DNA of 64,000 nt from Obelidium mucronatum. Lineage: Eukaryota; Chytridiomycota; Chytridiomycetes; Chytridiales; Chytriomycetaceae. The DNA is taken from contig JAIVFH010000029.1 of assembly GCA_025765595.1 (NCBI GenBank), positions 275,071 through 339,070 of the forward strand. Direction: 5' to 3'. Below, one piece after another: positions 19,499 to 64,000 of this stretch (position 1 is the stretch's first letter; the number at the start of each line of letters is the position of its first letter). Made by a program: the position numbers and the translations under genes. The notes below the pieces were generated by a model. The model did no database searches. It was given only the letters and a program-made list of their open reading frames with translations, and was not told where the DNA came from.

Positions 19499-20598
19499 CT
19501 AAGCAATAACACCCTTCTCCTTCAACTTTGAAATCAATTCGTCGACAGATTCCACCTTGACACCACCGGCACGTTTGGCGGGTTCTTCCACCGTCAAAGT
19601 GACAAGTTTTCCAGTGAAATCAACTCCGAGCTCTTTGGGGGAAGTCTTTTCGATGGGCTTCTTTTTTGCCTTCATAATGTTTGGCAGTGTTGCGTACCGA
19701 GGCTCGTTGAGTCTGATATTATATAGTATCAGTATTGACTTTACTGCCAAAGGCAGTTGAAAAGAAGAAAGAAAGAATATATCGCCTACGACGGTAACCA
19801 CAAAAGAAGCCACCGCCCACGGCGTTAGAGATCCGCCTTCGGCAGTAGAGACCCGCCTTCGGCAGTAGAGACCCGCCTTCAGCGGAGACCAAACAAAAAC
19901 CTCAAATCTGCGGTAATAATAGCCGGAGTTTGCATTTTAATAGTTTCGAGTCCCGCCATCAATTTCTCTCACGACGGTAACAGATTTGTGGTCTGCAGCG
20001 ACATCAATCTTTGAAGCAAAAGTAGCCTGCGGCCAGTCCAAGAGACCGGCGAGCATCTGACCGGTCTGGTTCGCATCATCGTCGATGGCCTGTTTGCCGA
20101 GAATGACGAGATCGGGCTTTTCCTTGTCGACGATTGCCTTGAGGTATTTCGCGACCTTGTTGGTGAAAAAAGAAGAGTCAAAAAGAAGAGTAAAAAAAAA
20201 AGAAGAGAGAAGAAAGTAGAACACGATAGAACACGATAGAAGAACAAAAGAACACTCACGCCCAGCGGCACGCTCTCGGCGTCGCCCGTGTCGACGTGCA
20301 CCGCCTTGTCGGCGCCCAGCGCCAGCGCCGTCCGCAGCACTTCGACGGCCTTGGCGCCGCCGACGGACACGGCGACGATCTGATTGGCTGCGCGCGCCTC
20401 CTTCAGCCGCAGCGCCGCCTCGACGGCGATTTCGCAGAACGGATTCATCGAGTGCTTCGCCGCCGCCGTGTCGACGCGTCCGTTCGCGACGCGGATCTTG
20501 ACCGCTTTTTATTGGCGTCGTATTAGTAAGCGGCGGCGGCGTATTAGTAACTGGCTACCGTAGTCGACAACCCGCTTGATCGGAACGAGGATCTTCAT
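19499..20598 (-). CDS. Electron transfer flavoprotein subunit beta (one frame break)
   Basis: The start [13 protein letters not shown] at 20598 and the phase-1 junction to [12 protein letters not shown] are canonical for ETF-beta, as are [51 protein letters not shown] and the C-terminal [19 protein letters not shown]. The protein forms a heterodimer with ETF-alpha in the mitochondrial matrix, binds AMP and passes electrons from acyl-CoA dehydrogenases to ETF-QO. At about 19950 the conserved [16 protein letters not shown] needs one base removed from a GGG run, so there is a +1 break in a gene expected to be essential for fatty-acid oxidation. The last intron carries short GC-rich palindromes (19826-19883). 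Exon 2 lies in a GC-rich patch. Confidence 0.85.
19820..19885. repeat. GC-rich short repeats in ETF-beta intron
   Basis: The unit CCGCCTTCGGCAGTAGAGA is repeated about three times in tandem within the intron, the last copy diverged (CTTCAGCGG). Its core is half of the palindrome ACCGCCGAAGGCGGT that is dense in the next gene's intron. Confidence 0.7.
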
Positions 20599-20672: not shown

Positions 20673-22293
20673 ATGGCCATCGCTTCTACCCCCATCGATC
20701 CAAACGCCCCTCTCGCAAAGAAACCAATCTCGTTCCAGAACTTGGCCATTGGCGCCGCGTTAAACATGTTTGAAGTCACTACACTGGGTCAACCATTCGA
20801 AGTCATCAAAACTCAAATGGCTGCAAACAGAGGACAGTCAATGGCGGCTTCTATTGCAACAGTTTGGTCTAGAGGTGGCGTTTTTGGTTTTTACCAAGGC
20901 CTTATTCCTTGGGGTGAGTTTTGTAGTTTTTGATTGTTGTTGTTTATTATCGTTTGGTTGCTGCATGCAAATATGACGTGATGGATTTCTTTTTTTTTTC
21001 GTCTCTCTCATACCGCCGAAGGCGGTGCTCTAATCGCCGAAGGCGAAACCCTACCGCCGAAGGCGGGACCACACCGCCTTCGGGCGGTGTATTCTTTTTT
21101 TTTCAATTCTTCTGGCGCCGAAGGCGGGACCCCACCGCCGAAGGCGGTGTATTCTTTTTTTTCAATTCTTCTGGCGCCGAAGGCGAGACCCTACCGCCGA
21201 AGGCGGTGTATTCTTTTTTTTTTTCAGTGAAATACCGCCGAAGGCGGTGTATTATCCAACCGGCCATTTCTCAATGATAATTCTAACATTTTTCCTTCTT
21301 CTTCTTCTTCCTCTTCTTCTTCCAAGCTTGGATCGAAGCGGCAACAAAGGGCGCTGTTCTCATGTTTGCAGTTTCAGAGTTGGAATACCAATTTAGAGTT
21401 CTTGGTGCTTCCGTTCCTGTTGCTGGTATCCTGGGTGGTATGGGTGGTGGTATTGTTCAAGCTTATACCACAATGGGTTTTTGTACTTTTATGAAGGTAT
21501 TTTAAACTACCTTACCAACCGCCACAGGCGGTATATCCTTCCTTCTCTTCTTCCTTGTTTTCATTTTCCAAAAATTCATCTTTCTTCAATATTTTTACCA
21601 ACCAGACAGTCGAAGTCACACGCCACAAGGGAGGCTCCGGCCCCTCAACAATCCACCGTCCAAGTCGCGCTCGAAATCTTCAAACGCGAAGGCTTCGCTG
21701 GAATCAATAAAGGTGTGAATGCAGTCGCCGTTCGTCAATGCACAAACTGGGGGTCCCGGTTCGGGCTCTCGCGTATCGCTGAAGACTTGATTAAAGGAAA
21801 AGACAAGTCGAGAAAATTGTCGGATTTGGAAAAGGTGGCCTGCGAGTAGTTTGGGTGGGGCCTTGAGTACGTGGAATCAGCCGATTGAGGTGATTCGAGT
21901 CGAGATGCAGAGTCAGTTGAAGGTGGCTGGGAGACCAGAGAAGATGACCATCAGTAGTGCTGTAAGTTGCCGTTCTACCTATATCGCCGAAGGCGGTTTA
22001 TTTTTTGTTTAACTTGAATGTATTTTGCCTATCTTGTGATTCTAAAATCTCACTCAATCAACTACTACATTAGGCTGGTTGGGTGTACAAGCAGAATGGA
22101 ATTCTTGGATTCTACCGTGGTGTCACCCCTCGTATTGGATTGGGTATTTGGCAAACTGTGTGTATGGTTGCATTTGGAGACAAGGTAAAAAATTCCGCCT
22201 GTTTTTCTATCTTTTTCAAGTTCTGATCTTTGAATTATCCAATTCAATCTAATTATATCATAGGTCAAGGCGTACTTTGAGAAAAAGAACTGA
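20673..22293 (+). CDS. YHM2: Mitochondrial citrate/oxoglutarate carrier (YHM2-like), one frame break
   Basis: Five exons: 20673-20913, 21327-21496, 21606-21961, 22074-22184 and 22264-22293. The protein is a mitochondrial carrier family member with strong YHM2 signatures: [79 protein letters not shown] and [21 protein letters not shown]2 exchanges citrate and oxoglutarate across the inner membrane (NADPH shuttle) and was first linked to mtDNA maintenance. In exon 3, near 21840, the reading frame needs one base removed (GGCCTGCG) to join LEKV to [16 protein letters not shown]. In such a conserved gene a sequencing or assembly error is the likelier explanation. Intron 1 (413 bp) is unusually long for this window because it holds an array of GC-rich palindromes. 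Confidence 0.9.
21011..21252. repeat. Array of GC-rich palindromes and ~62-bp tandem units in YHM2 intron 1
   Basis: The 15-base near-palindrome ACCGCCGAAGGCGGT or a close variant occurs about eight times. Two to three tandem units of about 62 bp combine two palindromes with the linker TGTATTC, a T-run and CAATTCTTCTGGC. Each palindrome can fold to a 6-bp GC stem with a GAA loop. Further single copies lie at about 21520-21535 (variant CCGCCACAGGCGG) and 21985-22000, both in introns of the same gene. Confidence 0.85.
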
Positions 22294-47911: not shown

Positions 47912-47933
47912 AGATTCTCTAGAAACACACTGT

Positions 47934-49613
47934 TCAAGCCACCAAGGACGTTGCACCTTTAACCGAACCGCCGACAATGCTCTTGATGGCAGGAAGCATC
48001 CACGAAACCAACGAAGAAGACTGCTTTTCAGTACTGGTGGATACAGAGAGAGACATGCGAATGGGAAGAGATCCTGCGTGGCAAAGAGTGTGAACCCAAA
48101 CATCGGAAATCTCCACGTCAACAAACGCGCTTGGCTTGGCGTATGCACTCATCAAGATTCCATCGACAACCACCTTGTCGCCGAAAACAACTGGACTAAA
48201 GATACCCAAACGCGTCTCTTCAGTGACAGAAGTGACTTGAATTGGAACAGCAGAGTTAACTGATGCAACAAACATTCCTGGCTTGACATTTGCAGCCTGG
48301 TGGGCAACCAGAGAATCCACATTTTGGGATACAGATGCAAAAAGCATGTGGTTTGGAGTCAAAGAAGCCTTGGACCCGTCGGCAAAGGCAAGAACCGTGA
48401 AACCGCGGCTTGCAGCTGGAAAGAAGTCATACCAGCCAATCACACGTTCAAATTTGGAATCATTGGCAGAGACACGGATGTAATCACCGAGCTGAACATT
48501 GCAAAGCTTGACGTTTCCAGAAAGAGTTTGCACAATGGCATCACCTGGAAAGCAGCCGCCTTGTGGTTCCGGCACATTCTTCTTCATCATCGCCTCCATG
48601 TCGGACCTGGACATTCCTGCACTCGGTTTAGGCATATTCTGGATCATTTGCTTCATTATTTCGCGCTCTTTTTCGAAGTTGGCATTTTGTTGCTGCATCT
48701 GGTCCATAAGAACCCGATTTTGATTCTTCATCTCCGTCAACTGAAGCTGGAATACATTTGTCATTGCGTCAAGGTAGTTCTGCATGTCTTGAGCCTCTGC
48801 TTTGTTTGCTTGCTTCACTTCAGAGACCTGTGTATAAGAAGTTAAGGAAACTGCTACTAAACACCGGCGGTTCAACTAACTTTTTCAGCAGGAATGATTG
48901 TTTGAGGAAGAGTCTCGACAAAATTGAAGAGCCCTTCGCTGGGAACCCACTCTCCAGGTTCACTGCCATCTGATCCTTCAAACCAGATCTCTGGCTGGTT
49001 GTGTTCTTTCGACGTTTTCTTGACGGCTACAAGAAAAGAATATAAAAAGTCAGATGATGCAACTCACACATGATAATTTTTGCTCACTCACCCATTTGAA
49101 TCTGCGATTCAGCCTTCAACTTGTTTTGTGGAATCTGCAAGGCCTTCATTACGTTTTCTGAAACTTGATTCACCACGACACCATAAGTGATTGGCACGTC
49201 GATTGAATTCAAGACACTGGTGATGGTGGTCATGTCTTCGCAGACAATCATTCCGTTGATTTGCTTCACGAAAAAGACGATTGTAAACGATCCACCAAGC
49301 TTGAGGCCCATTTCGATTTCTTTGGCAGCCTTGTTATTCGCTGAAATCAATACAATGCATGGTCTTTTTTAAGAATACGAATTAGTTTTACCTTTTCGGC
49401 AATTGTGGGATCAGCGAGACCAGGTGTATCGGCGTAACGAACGCCCTTGTATTCAAACTGCTGGAGAACTTGAGTCAAACCGCCTCCAAAGCTGAGACCA
49501 GACTCAAAGTTGGCCTTTCCCTTGTACCCAGCTTTCGCGAGAACGGCATTGAGAAAGGCACTCTTGCCAATTCTGGGGTTACCAAGGAGAAGAAGGGTTT
49601 GGCTGATTGTCAT
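47934..49613 (-). CDS. AIG1-like GTPase fused to a Hedgehog-type Hint domain (GIN1-like)
   Basis: Four exons: 49613-49392, 49329-49092, 49026-48881 and 48827-47934, all in phase, about 499 residues. Residues 1-150 are a P-loop GTPase: GNPRIGKSAFLNA (G1), YADTPGLADP (G3) and GVVVNQVSE (G4-like). A coiled coil follows (LQLTEMKNQNRVLMDQMQ), then at about residue 294 the junction QGG-CFPGDAIVQTLSG, the start of a Hint domain. Hint residues seen: the catalytic Cys, an Asp in IGWYDFF, and LTPNHMLFAS with the TxxH motif. VVVDGILMSAYAK matches the terminal Hint strand, with Ala where Hedgehog has Cys. Known family logic: Hint domains cleave before their Cys and, in Hedgehog, attach sterol to the N-terminal part. 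The architecture matches GmGIN1 of an arbuscular mycorrhizal fungus. Confidence 0.85.
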
Positions 49614-50124
49614 ATTTGAGACTGTTTTTCTTTTTTGTGTGGAAGTTGGGAGCTCCGAATTGTGGCTATTATATTCTTTTTCATTGTGGGTGGCTCCAGG
49701 AGCTAGGGAATTTGGAGTGTCTCAAAAAAAAATAAAAGTTCAAGAACAGCCAGCACTGGAGCTGCCAGTTTACAAACTTTCCATTTGATACAAGTAAACC
49801 AACTTGCGAGTCGTGAATGGGGGAAATCCCTTTTCTTGGAAGGAAAGTACGGAATTCTAAAGTAAATTGTGTTGATTCTTGAAATTCGAATAAGTGTTTT
49901 GAATACCGCCTTTATCGCGATTGAGGAATAAAAAATGGGAATGCAAAATGGTAAACGCAAATACTATAGTACGTCCTAGACAACGGCAATTCTGGATCGA
50001 ACTGAGTTTCAAAGTCATTGTGTTTAATTGGCGCCAAGAGCTCAGCTCCAGAGCCAGCAATCAATATAAATATTAAGGCTGATTGACGGGAGAAAGGAAA
50101 GGGTGAATTATTGACAGAGAAAAC

Positions 50125-51141
50125 ATGATTGCAGGAACCCAATGGAACGTCCTCGTCATGGGTAACCCTCGAATCGGGAAAAGCTCCTTTTTGAATGCTC
50201 TCCTTCGAAAAAACGGTGGGAAGGCAATTTTCGAAGCGGGGCTCTCGTTTGGAAGTGGCTTGACAACGGAGCTTCAAAAAGTTGAATGCAACAACATCAC
50301 GTATGTTGATACGCCGGGCCTTGCTGACCCGATGTTCGCAGAAAAGGTTTTCATACATTTTTCGGTTATTTAATATTAACTTTGACTCTTCCAGGCTGCA
50401 CGGGAAATAGAAAAGGCACTACGTCTTGGTGGAATCTTCAAGCTTATCTTCTTTGTCAAACAGTTAAATGGCATGGTGGCTTGCGAGGATGTTACTACAA
50501 TTAATGCTATTCTTGGGGCTATAAAGGAAAGAGTATGGTTTGGAGTGGTTGTGAATCAAATCCCGCCTGTCGTTTTTTCCGAGTTGAACAACAATAGCGT
50601 CAGCAAATTTGCAATGGAATGCCAAATTGTCGAAGGTTCACTTTACATGCTGCCGTTTCTTTTCTAATTTTACGTGCAACGTACAGGACTCTCGCATTCT
50701 TCTCCACACAAGATTTCAGGCATTCACTTTGAACCCCTTGTTGAAGTCACATCAGGATCTTGGATGCCGAGCGAAAGCCTTTTTAATTTTTTTGCGAGAC
50801 AGGCGGAGTGTAAAATCAACCCGGAGATGGTAGGAAGCGTTGCAGTTCCTGGAGATGTTGATGCGGCTGAAATTCAAACAACGATCAACCAAGTGATGAC
50901 AACATTTTCAAACGAGATCCGACTGTTAAAACAGGAGAATGCGGAGATTCTTCAGCAACTACAATCGGGTCATGTTTTAATGGAGGAAATGCGCAAACAG
51001 TACCTTGAGGAGCGCCACATCAGGTCAAACGTTGATTCTGATCAAAGCAATAATGGAGGTTTTCTGAGTTTTGGCGATTTGCTACGAAATATGTTTTATC
51101 AAATTGCTGGCCCAATTCTGGGGAACTGTTGTGTTATGTGA
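50125..51141 (+). CDS. AIG1-like GTPase with C-terminal CaaX box, paralogue of the GTPase-Hint gene
   Basis: Three exons: 50125-50346, 50395-50635 and 50687-51141. Exon 1 is 222 bp, the same length as in the Hint paralogue, and the first two introns sit at the same places and phases. GTPase motifs: GNPRIGKSSFLNALL, YVDTPGLADP, GVVVNQIPP. The part after it shares SGSWMPSESLFNFF with GEWVPSEGLFNF of the paralogue, then a coiled coil (TFSNEIRLLKQENAEIL). There is no Hint domain; the protein ends GNCCVM, a CaaX box with Met last, which predicts farnesylation. So the same GTPase module appears to reach membranes by prenylation here and possibly by Hint chemistry in its divergent neighbour (512 bp between starts). 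Confidence 0.85.
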
Positions 51142-61773: not shown

Positions 61774-63712
61774 TTAAGGGTCAAATTTTGTTCGGATTTT
61801 GCCGTGTCGAGTGTCGTGGAAAAGGGAGCCAAGGTTAGGGTTGGATTTTAGGGCAAGTACAGTGGATGGTGGGTTGGTCCAGTCGGTGAGGTGGCTTGAA
61901 GTTAAAATTTTCTCTTGGAAAATTTTCAAGTTGTTTCCGATTTTAAGTTGATTGATTCTGTGATTGTATCGGATAATGAATGGGGCAATTCGGGAGTCGT
62001 CGGTAGTTTTTGGAGTGAGATATTGATTGCGTTTTTTGTAGGATACTGAGTTGGAGATCGAGTGGAAAAATTTCGGGGGGTAGCCGCGTTTGAGGAGTCT
62101 GTAGGCGGAAAAGATTTCTGAGGTTGTTGAAGTCAGTTTCGGAGGAGGAGCAGCGGATGTAACGAATTAGTTCTCCTTTAATAAAGCCTTTTTTCAGATT
62201 GGTCGGGTGGCTTGAGGAGTTGGAGATGTATGTGTAAGTGTTGAGAATTTTTTGATGACATTGCGTGGTGATTCGTCCGTTGCGTATGGAGATTATTAGG
62301 TCTAGGAAGTCAATAGATTTCGTGGAAGTGACTAAAGTGAATTTGATGCCTGGGATGATTGTTTGGCAGTGCTCGAAGAAGGTTTGAAGATCCGGTAAAG
62401 GGGCGGTCCAGATTCCGAAAATATCATCAACATAGCGATTGTAGAATTGCATTTGGTTGGAGATAGTGTTTTGGACAAGTGGATGTTCTTCAAAGTGGAT
62501 CATGAGGAAGACATTAGCGACTAAGACGGCCATATTGGTACCCATAGCCATCCCGTGAATTTGATGGAAGATTTTTTCGCCGAAGGTGAAAAAATTGTTC
62601 GAGAGGACCCAGTGGACAAGGTCCGGTAGGAAGTGGGGGAGGTTGTGTCTTCGAGTAAAAGTAGCGATGGCGTTGGTGGTGAGATGGATATTCATAGAGC
62701 CGTAGAGGTTGACGACATCGAAAGAGAAGAGGATAGCAGTAGAAGAGACTGGTGCGGTAAGATTGTTGAGGGCATTTATAATGTGTGTAGAATTAGTGGG
62801 TCGTAGTGGGTCTGTTTCGAAGAAGGGTTTGAGAACTTCCGTGATATAGATACTGGCGTTGGTGGTGATCCAATTTGTTGCTCCGACTATTGGTCTGACC
62901 GCGAGTAGAGGGTGGTGGCCCGTGGGGATAGTCTTATGGAGTTTAGGGATAGTTCTGAATTTAGGGAGAGTATGGTTAGAGTTTAGAGTGTGTCGGAGAA
63001 ACTTAGAGTGTTGTTTAGGTAGATTGTGTTGACTGTTGAGAATTGCGAGGTAGGAGCGGTAGATGTCTTGAATTGTTTCTTCAAAGTAGATGTCGAGTGT
63101 AATAGGAGTATAGGTTGTAGCGTCGTTGAGGTGTAGAATTGTCAGGTGATCGTAATGAGATGTGTCTAGGATTACTAAGCCAAGATTTTTGTCGGCTTGC
63201 ACGAGAGAGATTTTTTCATTGTTTTTGAGGTTGATCAGTGGTTTTAGGGCTGAATCGATAGGTTGTCGGTAGAAAGGCTTGGTGGTAATTTCGGCTTGTA
63301 TTGAGGCTTGGAAGTAATCGAGGGCTTCTGAGATGATTGGGTGTGGTTCTTCGGGTAGAAAATTAGTTGACTTGATATGGAGTTTTGGATTGAAGGGCGG
63401 TTGGTCCGGAGGGGGTATTAGGTTGCGGAATTGATATTGAATTAGAATTCGGCGGCGGAAGTCGTGAATTGAAATGTTGATTTCGTTAGAGGTTAGAGTT
63501 CGTGGATGGAAGGCGTGTTTAATTCCAAGTGTTAAGATGTTTTGGGCTTGGGGTGAAAGTTTGATGTTGCTAAAGTTGAAGACTAGTGGTTTTGTAGTTG
63601 TTGACGGTATATTGGCTTGTATTTTGATTTTAAACGGATGGAAGAATTGGCGAGTTTTGGAGATTTTTTTGATTTTTGAGCGCGATTTTCGTTGGCGAAT
63701 GGAGGTCTTGGT
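61774..63712 (-). mobile_element. Penelope-like reverse transcriptase, frameshifted
   Basis: The frame is open from about 63712 to 61943; one frame over at about 62000 it continues (RIAPFIIRYNHRINQLKI, ending HDTRHGKIRTKFDP) to a stop near 61774. PLE landmarks in order: LSPQAQNILTLGIKHAF, QADKNLGLVILD, LPKFRTIPKLHKTIPTG (the PKLHK motif), SFDVVNLYGSM, GMAMGTNMAVLVAN and RYVDDIFGIW (the catalytic YVDD). No GIY-YIG endonuclease follows the thumb, so the copy is either truncated or of an endonuclease-lacking lineage. No in-frame ATG occurs in the upstream part, so the natural start is either beyond the edge or non-canonical. Element ends are not visible. Confidence 0.8.
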
Positions 63713-64000
63713 TAGATTTGTCTCCCGCGCGGGTGAAAATTTGTTTTGGAGTTGGTGAAAGAGACCCGAGCGTTAAAGCGAGTGTTTCGTGAAGTTGGGC
63801 TTGATGAGCGGGAACGATTTCGGTTACCAGTAGTGGACTGTCGGCTGTTCTTGAGGGCTGACTTAAGAGGGCGGTTTGGAGAGCGGCTTGACGGGCGGCT
63901 TGACGGGCGGCTTGAAGAGCGATTTGAAGAGCGGCTTGGAGAACGGTAACGGTTGGGATGGTTTGGAAGTCGGCGTTTGGTGGGGCTTGAAGAGCGACGA
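63713..64000 (-). other. Arg/Ser-rich segment upstream of the Penelope-like RT, with tandem repeats
   Basis: On the minus strand a different frame from the RT is open from the window edge to about 63715 and reads SRSSNRSSSRPSSRPSSRS, then KNSRQSTTGNRNRSRSSSP, ending HPRGRQI and a stop. The DNA has tandem units of GACGGGCGGCTT and related 12-mers (about 63888-63945). It may be an N-terminal RS-rich region of the element whose frame is broken before the RT. Beyond the edge it cannot be followed. Confidence 0.4.

Follow-up and report, generated by a model that had tools for sequence, protein, structure and literature searches.

Head-to-head AIG1-like GTPase genes ending in a Hint domain and a CaaX box in the chytrid Obelidium mucronatum

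Can one GTPase module be given two alternative lipid anchors by a pair of neighbouring genes? This question is raised by a locus of the chytrid Obelidium mucronatum at which two AIG1-like GTPase genes stand head to head, 512 bp from ATG to ATG, one (here HINT) encoding a C-terminal Hint domain and the other (CAAX) a C-terminal CaaX box. The pair occupies positions 47934..51141 of the window—the 64,000-nucleotide stretch that we analysed, which forms the end of contig C29 (339,070 bp; assembly size 48.3 Mb)—and a sequence-only reading of this DNA had proposed that the two genes carry the same GTPase on different lipids. Our best reading is a GTPase family with interchangeable C-terminal anchors, for which cleavage, sterol attachment, and prenylation are predicted, and within which the Hint part of HINT shares a younger ancestor with a second Hint gene than the GTPase part does.

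The gene pair and its two C-termini

The features of the locus are as follows.

47934..49613, minus strand: HINT gene, exons 49613-49392, 49329-49092, 49026-48881, and 48827-47934 (splicing and translation)
50125..51141, plus strand: CAAX gene, exons 50125-50346, 50395-50635, and 50687-51141 (splicing and translation)
49614..50124, strand not applicable: intergenic stretch between both start codons (from the gene models)
47937..48560, minus strand: Hint module, residues 292-499 (profile alignment to Sonic hedgehog and 1AT0)
48554-48552, 48428-48426, 48359-48357, and 48350-48348, minus strand: Hint residues Cys294, Asp336, Thr359, and His362, respectively
51127..51138, plus strand: CaaX box CCVM with the candidate prenylated Cys302 (translation)
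47926..48562, minus strand: DNA 86% identical to the Hint region of the gene at locus B (blastn, window against L029)

HINT has four exons and encodes 499 residues in the order AIG1-like GTPase, stalk, and Hog-type Hint; CAAX has three exons and encodes 305 residues in the order AIG1-like GTPase, stalk, and CCVM C-terminus. The spliced models and Pfam thus bear out the earlier description of two such GTPases on opposite strands with starts at this distance, one ending in a Hint domain that opens GG/CFPGDA and carries TxxH, the other lacking Hint and ending CCVM. The proteins are paralogues (119/300 aligned residues identical, E 2e-62), and both possess the P-loop GNPRIGKS and the DTPG motif. 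Against a cut-off of 27 bits, Pfam AIG1 (PF04548) scores 28.8 in CAAX, which also matches MMR_HSR1 (34.5 bits), and 25.1, slightly below the cut-off, in HINT. The first exon is 222 bp in both genes, and their first two introns, of phase 0 (after ..AEK) and phase 1, respectively, occupy matching positions, as the sequence-only reading had noticed; the shared introns are not peculiar to the pair, however, given that every one of the five modelled genes has intron 2 and that the second Hint gene also has intron 1 (which C1 and C2, a second head-to-head pair described below, lack). The protein predicted for CAAX does not differ in any residue from the public O. mucronatum protein P0004. No public record of the HINT protein was among the results of our HINT and Hint protein searches, and the HINT model is therefore based on its GT..AG introns and on the homologous second Hint gene; HINT is apparently without a public protein record, whereas its neighbour CAAX and its paralogue at locus B each have one. 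The stretch between the two start codons is presumably a shared promoter region.

The C-terminus of CAAX is a well-formed Cys-a-a-X box, and the chance odds of a CaaX-like ending, calculated from the residue make-up of HINT and CAAX with permissive classes, are about 0.002. Farnesylation is the modification expected where X is Met, and some human guanylate-binding proteins likewise carry CaaX boxes. Matches to the prenyltransferase and ICMT families are present in the Obelidium genome at the level of families rather than of individual enzymes. The structure model of CAAX is of moderate quality (mean predicted local distance difference test score, pLDDT, 73.8) and includes a long helix at 214-271, which we take for a probable coiled coil. 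Predicted cleavage before Cys294 of HINT would leave a GTPase of 293 residues; in CAAX, the candidate cysteine is at position 302, and both modifications would therefore come to lie where the shared stalk ends.

Catalytic residues of the Hint domain and a predicted mechanism

Pfam Hint (PF01079) matches HINT at residues 291-433 with an E value of 4e-20. When used as a lone query, this domain gave no solved-structure match at 0.001; only three-sequence profiles, built from HINT, P0001 (the second Hint gene), and P0003 (a metagenomic protein described below), matched Hedgehog, reaching E 8e-7 for Sonic hedgehog and 1.5e-6 for the Drosophila Hint structure 1AT0. In a search with a wider alignment (A1) the top structure matches were guanylate-binding proteins, owing to the inclusion of P0003. 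Hedgehog residues Cys258, Asp303, Thr326, and His329 correspond to Cys294, Asp336, Thr359, and His362 of HINT and are identical in all three Hints, as is the glycine before the nucleophilic cysteine (Gly293-Cys294). The loss of the Hint Cys or TxxH in all orthologues, which the sequence-only reading had named as refuting it, was thus not seen in these three Hints. The aspartate serves as a general base and distinguishes Hedgehog from inteins. In Hedgehog, a D303A variant retains cleavage by dithiothreitol and does not complete cholesterol addition, according to the accessible part of that study (PMC9163320). Together, this residue set—with one clear departure, considered below—favours an active Hint that would be able to use an alcohol such as sterol. 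A tblastn search of the window with the Hint domain, made for further Hint remnants, returned the domain itself and one chance match of 18 residues (E 3.5).

From these residues we would predict the following course. HINT would be made as a cytosolic precursor, given that its P-loop lies within the first 20 residues and a signal peptide, read from sequence, is thus unlikely. The Hint would then turn the Gly293-Cys294 bond into a thioester, from which a nucleophile would free the 293-residue GTPase with an adduct on its last glycine; this nucleophile would most likely be a sterol of the membrane, with Asp336 activating it. CAAX, for its part, would be prenylated on Cys302 and, because X is Met, probably farnesylated, which would place its lipid at a position equivalent to that of HINT. 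Sterol is favoured as the nucleophile because Asp336 is kept and because cholesterol was the main sterol in four of the five Chytridiales tested in the accessible part of a survey in which Obelidium is not named (PMC2878339). The Hint itself may be a portable module that has passed from one GTPase gene to another in this genome, by a move or by conversion.

Relatives and exchange of the Hint module

Searches of the Obelidium genome with HINT and CAAX gave 22 and 14 matching stretches, respectively, which with their fetched flanks resolve into five loci.

Locus A: the window pair, HINT and CAAX; no second copy found
Locus B: C29:262184-264008, AIG1+Hint gene (P0001); 97% copy on C325
Locus C: C95, second head-to-head GTPase pair (C1 and C2); 95% copy on C187
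Locus D: C42, L034:1704-2170, pseudogene; 97% copy on C101
Locus E: C9, L036:4347-4659, deleted copy of B; 95% copy on C288

The second copies of loci B to E probably represent the other haplotype. Locus B lies about 59 kb from the window pair, and its gene is already named in the public record (P0001) as a hint module-domain-containing protein; no GTPase partner was found within about 3 kb on either side of it. AIG1 scores exceed the cut-off of 27 in P0001 (29.2 bits), C1 (27.9 bits), and C2 (29.7 bits), and two further weak matches (on C77 and C36) fall below it. Neither member of pair C carries a Hint or a CaaX box: the C-terminus of C2 is a hydrophobic segment resembling a membrane helix (hydropathy 2.14 over 19 residues), and the final ~100 residues of C1, in the splice form modelled, match no Pfam family and look beta-rich. 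Five modelled genes thus show four kinds of tail—Hint (two), CaaX (one), membrane-helix-like (one), and beta-rich (one). Pseudogene D is truncated and has an altered P-loop, and the HINT GTPase is its closest match (63%, 134 columns); its decay and the deletion at E point to a family that is losing as well as gaining members. In the C29 copy of locus B, a GT..AG insert of 189 bp (L029:3802-3990) marks the precise junction of GTPase and Hint, and the C325 copy (L030) lacks it; in the public protein P0001 it is handled as an intron, yet the frame stays open through it.

What became of the proposed pairing? One of the two intact Hint loci has a partner, and one of the two head-to-head pairs combines Hint with CaaX, so that, with locus B unpaired and pair C without either anchor, this combination has so far been seen only once. 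The idea of one GTPase module on two alternative lipid anchors therefore stands in part: the genes are paralogues, Gly-Cys, TxxH, and Asp are kept, and the CaaX box is well formed, but the pairing as a general arrangement is not supported. We hypothesize that HINT and CAAX are a pair of alternative anchors.

The comparison of HINT with the gene at locus B shows different histories for their two parts. DNA similarity between the window and locus B, as found by blastn, sets in 8 bases ahead of the Cys294 codon and runs until 8 bases after the stop codon, and the module boundary thus falls at the predicted cleavage site. Over the 207 codons of the Hint part, identity between the two genes is 84.5% at the protein level and 85.7% at the DNA level, with 0.076 nonsynonymous (dN) and 0.50 synonymous (dS) substitutions per site and a low dN/dS of about 0.15; their GTPase parts are 39% identical and synonymously saturated (proportion of synonymous differences, pS, 0.74). 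Where the residue is identical, the codon is identical too in 122/168 cases in the Hint part and in 31/76 in the GTPase part (Fisher 3.6e-6). Codon bias is about equal in the two parts while synonymous identity differs, and we therefore rejected codon bias or constraint alone as the cause of the Hint similarity. These contrasts in dS, codon use, and blastn extent place the common ancestor of the Hint part later than that of the GTPase part, and the ending of DNA similarity at the Hint edge argues that the Hint was exchanged as a module. Either a jump of the Hint to a new GTPase or conversion between two sister genes may have produced this pattern.

Phylogenies of the GTPase part bear on the same question with moderate support. 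The best trees join HINT and CAAX (83/87 with six rows; 72/77 without P0002, a distant relative described below), also when pseudogene D is added (70/81), in which case D falls beside HINT. Trees that join the two Hint-bearing GTPases were not rejected (approximately unbiased test, p 0.175 and 0.192). A descent of both head-to-head pairs from one ancestral pair was rejected: in the five-row tree, groupings of HINT with C1 and of CAAX with C2 each gave p 0.018, with the groups named post hoc.

Beyond this genome, the protein search with HINT scored the 8000 candidates that shared most words with it, and the Hint and CAAX searches had 579 and 193 candidates, respectively. The HINT search recovered P0001 and P0002, the latter a distant GTPase (MMR_HSR1, no Pfam AIG1 match) whose C-terminus, CVIL, is a CaaX box. 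The Hint search recovered P0001 and P0003, a metagenomic protein of 853 residues (Joint Genome Institute) that combines a guanylate-binding-protein GTPase (53 bits, cut-off 21.1) with a Hint (93.4 bits) which is 44% identical to that of HINT and has all four catalytic residues. Prokaryote relatives were considered and rejected, with none among 56 pattern matches in genome contigs. In viral contigs, 12/55 pattern matches encode weak relatives (33-44% over 36-79 residues). At these viral loci (L061-L072; four of the twelve were read), a Hint-like GGCFPGDA lies near the N-terminus of a protein of ~1000 residues and is followed by HN-KGGG; the domain looks intein-like, and its host protein may be a phage tail-tip protein. 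Weak Hint matches of 23.2 bits, below the cut-off, also occur in long frames of the Obelidium genome (L042 and L044 on C65, L043 on C234), of which L042 and L044 look like the Vint genes (VWA with a Hint-like domain) in the accessible part of PMC2362128.

Apart from the GTPase genes, the window contains an open frame of 609 residues with RYVDD (61943-63772, minus strand) that has no Pfam match at 0.01 and resembles a Penelope-type reverse transcriptase. The final 4 kb of the window show a GC skew of 0.35, and short GC-rich repeats around CGCCTTCGGCG (window 19826-19888 and 21011-21222, and the flanks of L031/L032) turn up repeatedly in the genome stretches that the analysis covered. Neither Rfam nor a tRNA scan gave a match in the window.

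Weighing the readings, and the known systems

Our favoured reading, which we hold tentatively, is that the locus arose by local, inverted duplication of a single AIG1-like GTPase gene, with each copy membrane-bound by a different C-terminal device, and that the Hint is portable. Besides the retained catalytic residues, the low dN/dS of the Hint, the module edge at the predicted cleavage site, and the cholesterol of Chytridiales, we count in its favour the membrane-helix-like tail of C2, the joining of a guanylate-binding protein to a Hint in P0003, the CVIL end of P0002, and the prenyltransferase and ICMT matches. Several observations weigh against it. At the position of Hedgehog C400 (SCYA, motif J) all three Hints have Ala (SAYA, HINT residues 429-432), and C400 mutations inhibit both steps in Drosophila, as reported in the available text of PMC4695875; sterol loading by the Hint of HINT is for this reason uncertain. 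The Pfam Hint match ends at profile position 162/213 in 3/3 proteins and leaves the tail unmatched, and the structure model of the Hint is poor (mean pLDDT 48.8, too low to use). To these are added the unpaired Hint gene at locus B, a second pair with neither Hint nor CaaX, the missing public HINT record, and the lack of CAAX relatives with a CaaX box, for which the 193 candidates gave one match, CAAX itself.

The departures in the Hint domain would fit a less probable but serious alternative, namely that the Hint is solely a self-cutting release switch, in which the thioester yields to water or a small thiol and a soluble GTPase is freed from a precursor perhaps held at the membrane by its tail; CAAX would then be the anchored form and HINT the releasable one. 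Besides the replaced C400, the 67-residue tail after SAYA, at the place expected of a sterol recognition region, had no Pfam match and is thus unrecognised as one, and it contains an amphipathic, fairly hydrophobic stretch that is modelled, at low confidence (pLDDT <50), as two helices. The same two helices agree with the helix-loop-helix proposed for the Hedgehog sterol recognition region in the accessible part of PMC9163320, but prove nothing. Against such a switch stands the aspartate, which in the Hedgehog work cited above is needed for cholesterol addition and dispensable for thiol cleavage, and which is kept in 3/3 Hints. Moreover, several Hogs of red algal, moss, and protist origin also have another residue in place of the motif J Cys (PMC2362128, in the part available), and C400 thus defines Hedgehog rather than all Hogs.

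The tails could also be functionally unlinked, the pair being an ordinary tandem duplicate in a fast-changing family whose tails turn over, with CaaX and Hint each arising by its own accident. We regard this as improbable, although locus B has no partner, pair C ends in different tails, five genes display four tail kinds, and the groupings that would imply one old pair were rejected (p 0.018, post hoc); a CaaX ending is seldom expected by chance, and Hint and CaaX box would take effect at matching places in the two proteins. We give still less weight to a decaying HINT or an inactive Hint, to which the missing public record, the replaced C400, the related pseudogene at D, and the deleted copy of B at E might point, because dN/dS between the Hints is low, the four catalytic residues are kept, and HINT is open across its four exons.

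Fusion of AIG1 with Hint is in itself already known. GmGIN1 of Glomus mosseae combines an AIG1 GTPase with a Hog-type Hint (PMC2362128), and the AIG1+Hint family is greatly expanded in Glomeromycotina and occurred, in the accessible part of that analysis, in no other fungi examined there (PMC8778642). Like these proteins (MEROPS C46), HINT is fungal, probably lacks a signal peptide, and carries an AIG1-like GTPase followed by a Hog-type Hint, and it fits the GIN1-type definition of AIG1 GTPase plus C-terminal Hint, albeit with an AIG1 score below 27; unlike them, it belongs to a chytrid and has a head-to-head CaaX paralogue, Obelidium is not named in the available text of PMC8778642, and the likeness is one of domain order. 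The resemblance to GmGIN1 pointed out earlier thus holds for this order but is not limited to GmGIN1, which is joined not only by the Glomeromycotina but also by four sequences of the coral Acropora millepora (PMC3723955) and a gene of the snail Biomphalaria glabrata (PMC7053062)—animals in which the domain order is that of HINT and for which the accessible texts mention no paired CaaX paralogue.

With the Hint/Hog of Hedgehog (Sonic hedgehog and 1AT0), HINT has in common the equivalents of Gly-Cys, TxxH, and Asp303, whereas it differs in its Ala for C400, its unrecognised sterol recognition region, and its GTPase carrier in place of a secreted signal; its N-terminal part being a GTPase without a Hedge domain, and a signal peptide being judged unlikely, it lies outside the definition of a Hedgehog protein. 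In the AIG1-type GIMAP/IAN GTPases, members differ in their C-terminal membrane anchoring, as they would here, but those anchors are transmembrane or hydrophobic segments without Hint, and CaaX or prenylation is absent from the available text (PMC8201404). Lineages also swap the prenylation motif of Rheb for other anchors (PMC5869587), though Rheb belongs to the Ras family rather than AIG1 and the accessible account includes no self-processing domain. P0003 bears the same kind of Hint on another large GTPase, which differs in being a guanylate-binding protein. In the open-access literature, as far as its texts were available, we found no chytrid AIG1+Hint gene, no head-to-head CaaX paralogue, no Hint exchange between GTPases, and nothing joining a Hint with a guanylate-binding protein, while AIG1 together with CaaX led to a single paper, on a pituitary adenoma; what is new here is the exchange of the Hint as a module, the second pair with other tails, and the fusion with a guanylate-binding protein.

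A broader view, unlikely on present evidence, would see in these genes immune-type fungal GTPases with interchangeable anchors, the Hint being a mobile cytosolic sterol-loading cassette on AIG1 and guanylate-binding-protein GTPases and the window pair giving sterol- and prenyl-anchored versions from one shared promoter region. If sterol is indeed loaded onto a cytosolic GTPase, sterol attachment would extend beyond secreted proteins of the Hedgehog kind, and a simple fungus would become a system for its study, where HINT and CAAX would provide a natural side-by-side test of two anchors on one GTPase. The exchange of the Hint shows a route by which self-processing domains spread between genes. 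An Aig1 gene of Rhizophagus irregularis is induced when different isolates meet (PMC7490403, from its accessible part), and given this induction and the expansion of AIG1+Hint proteins in Glomeromycotina, a mechanism established at this locus would bear on responses of such fungi to one another.

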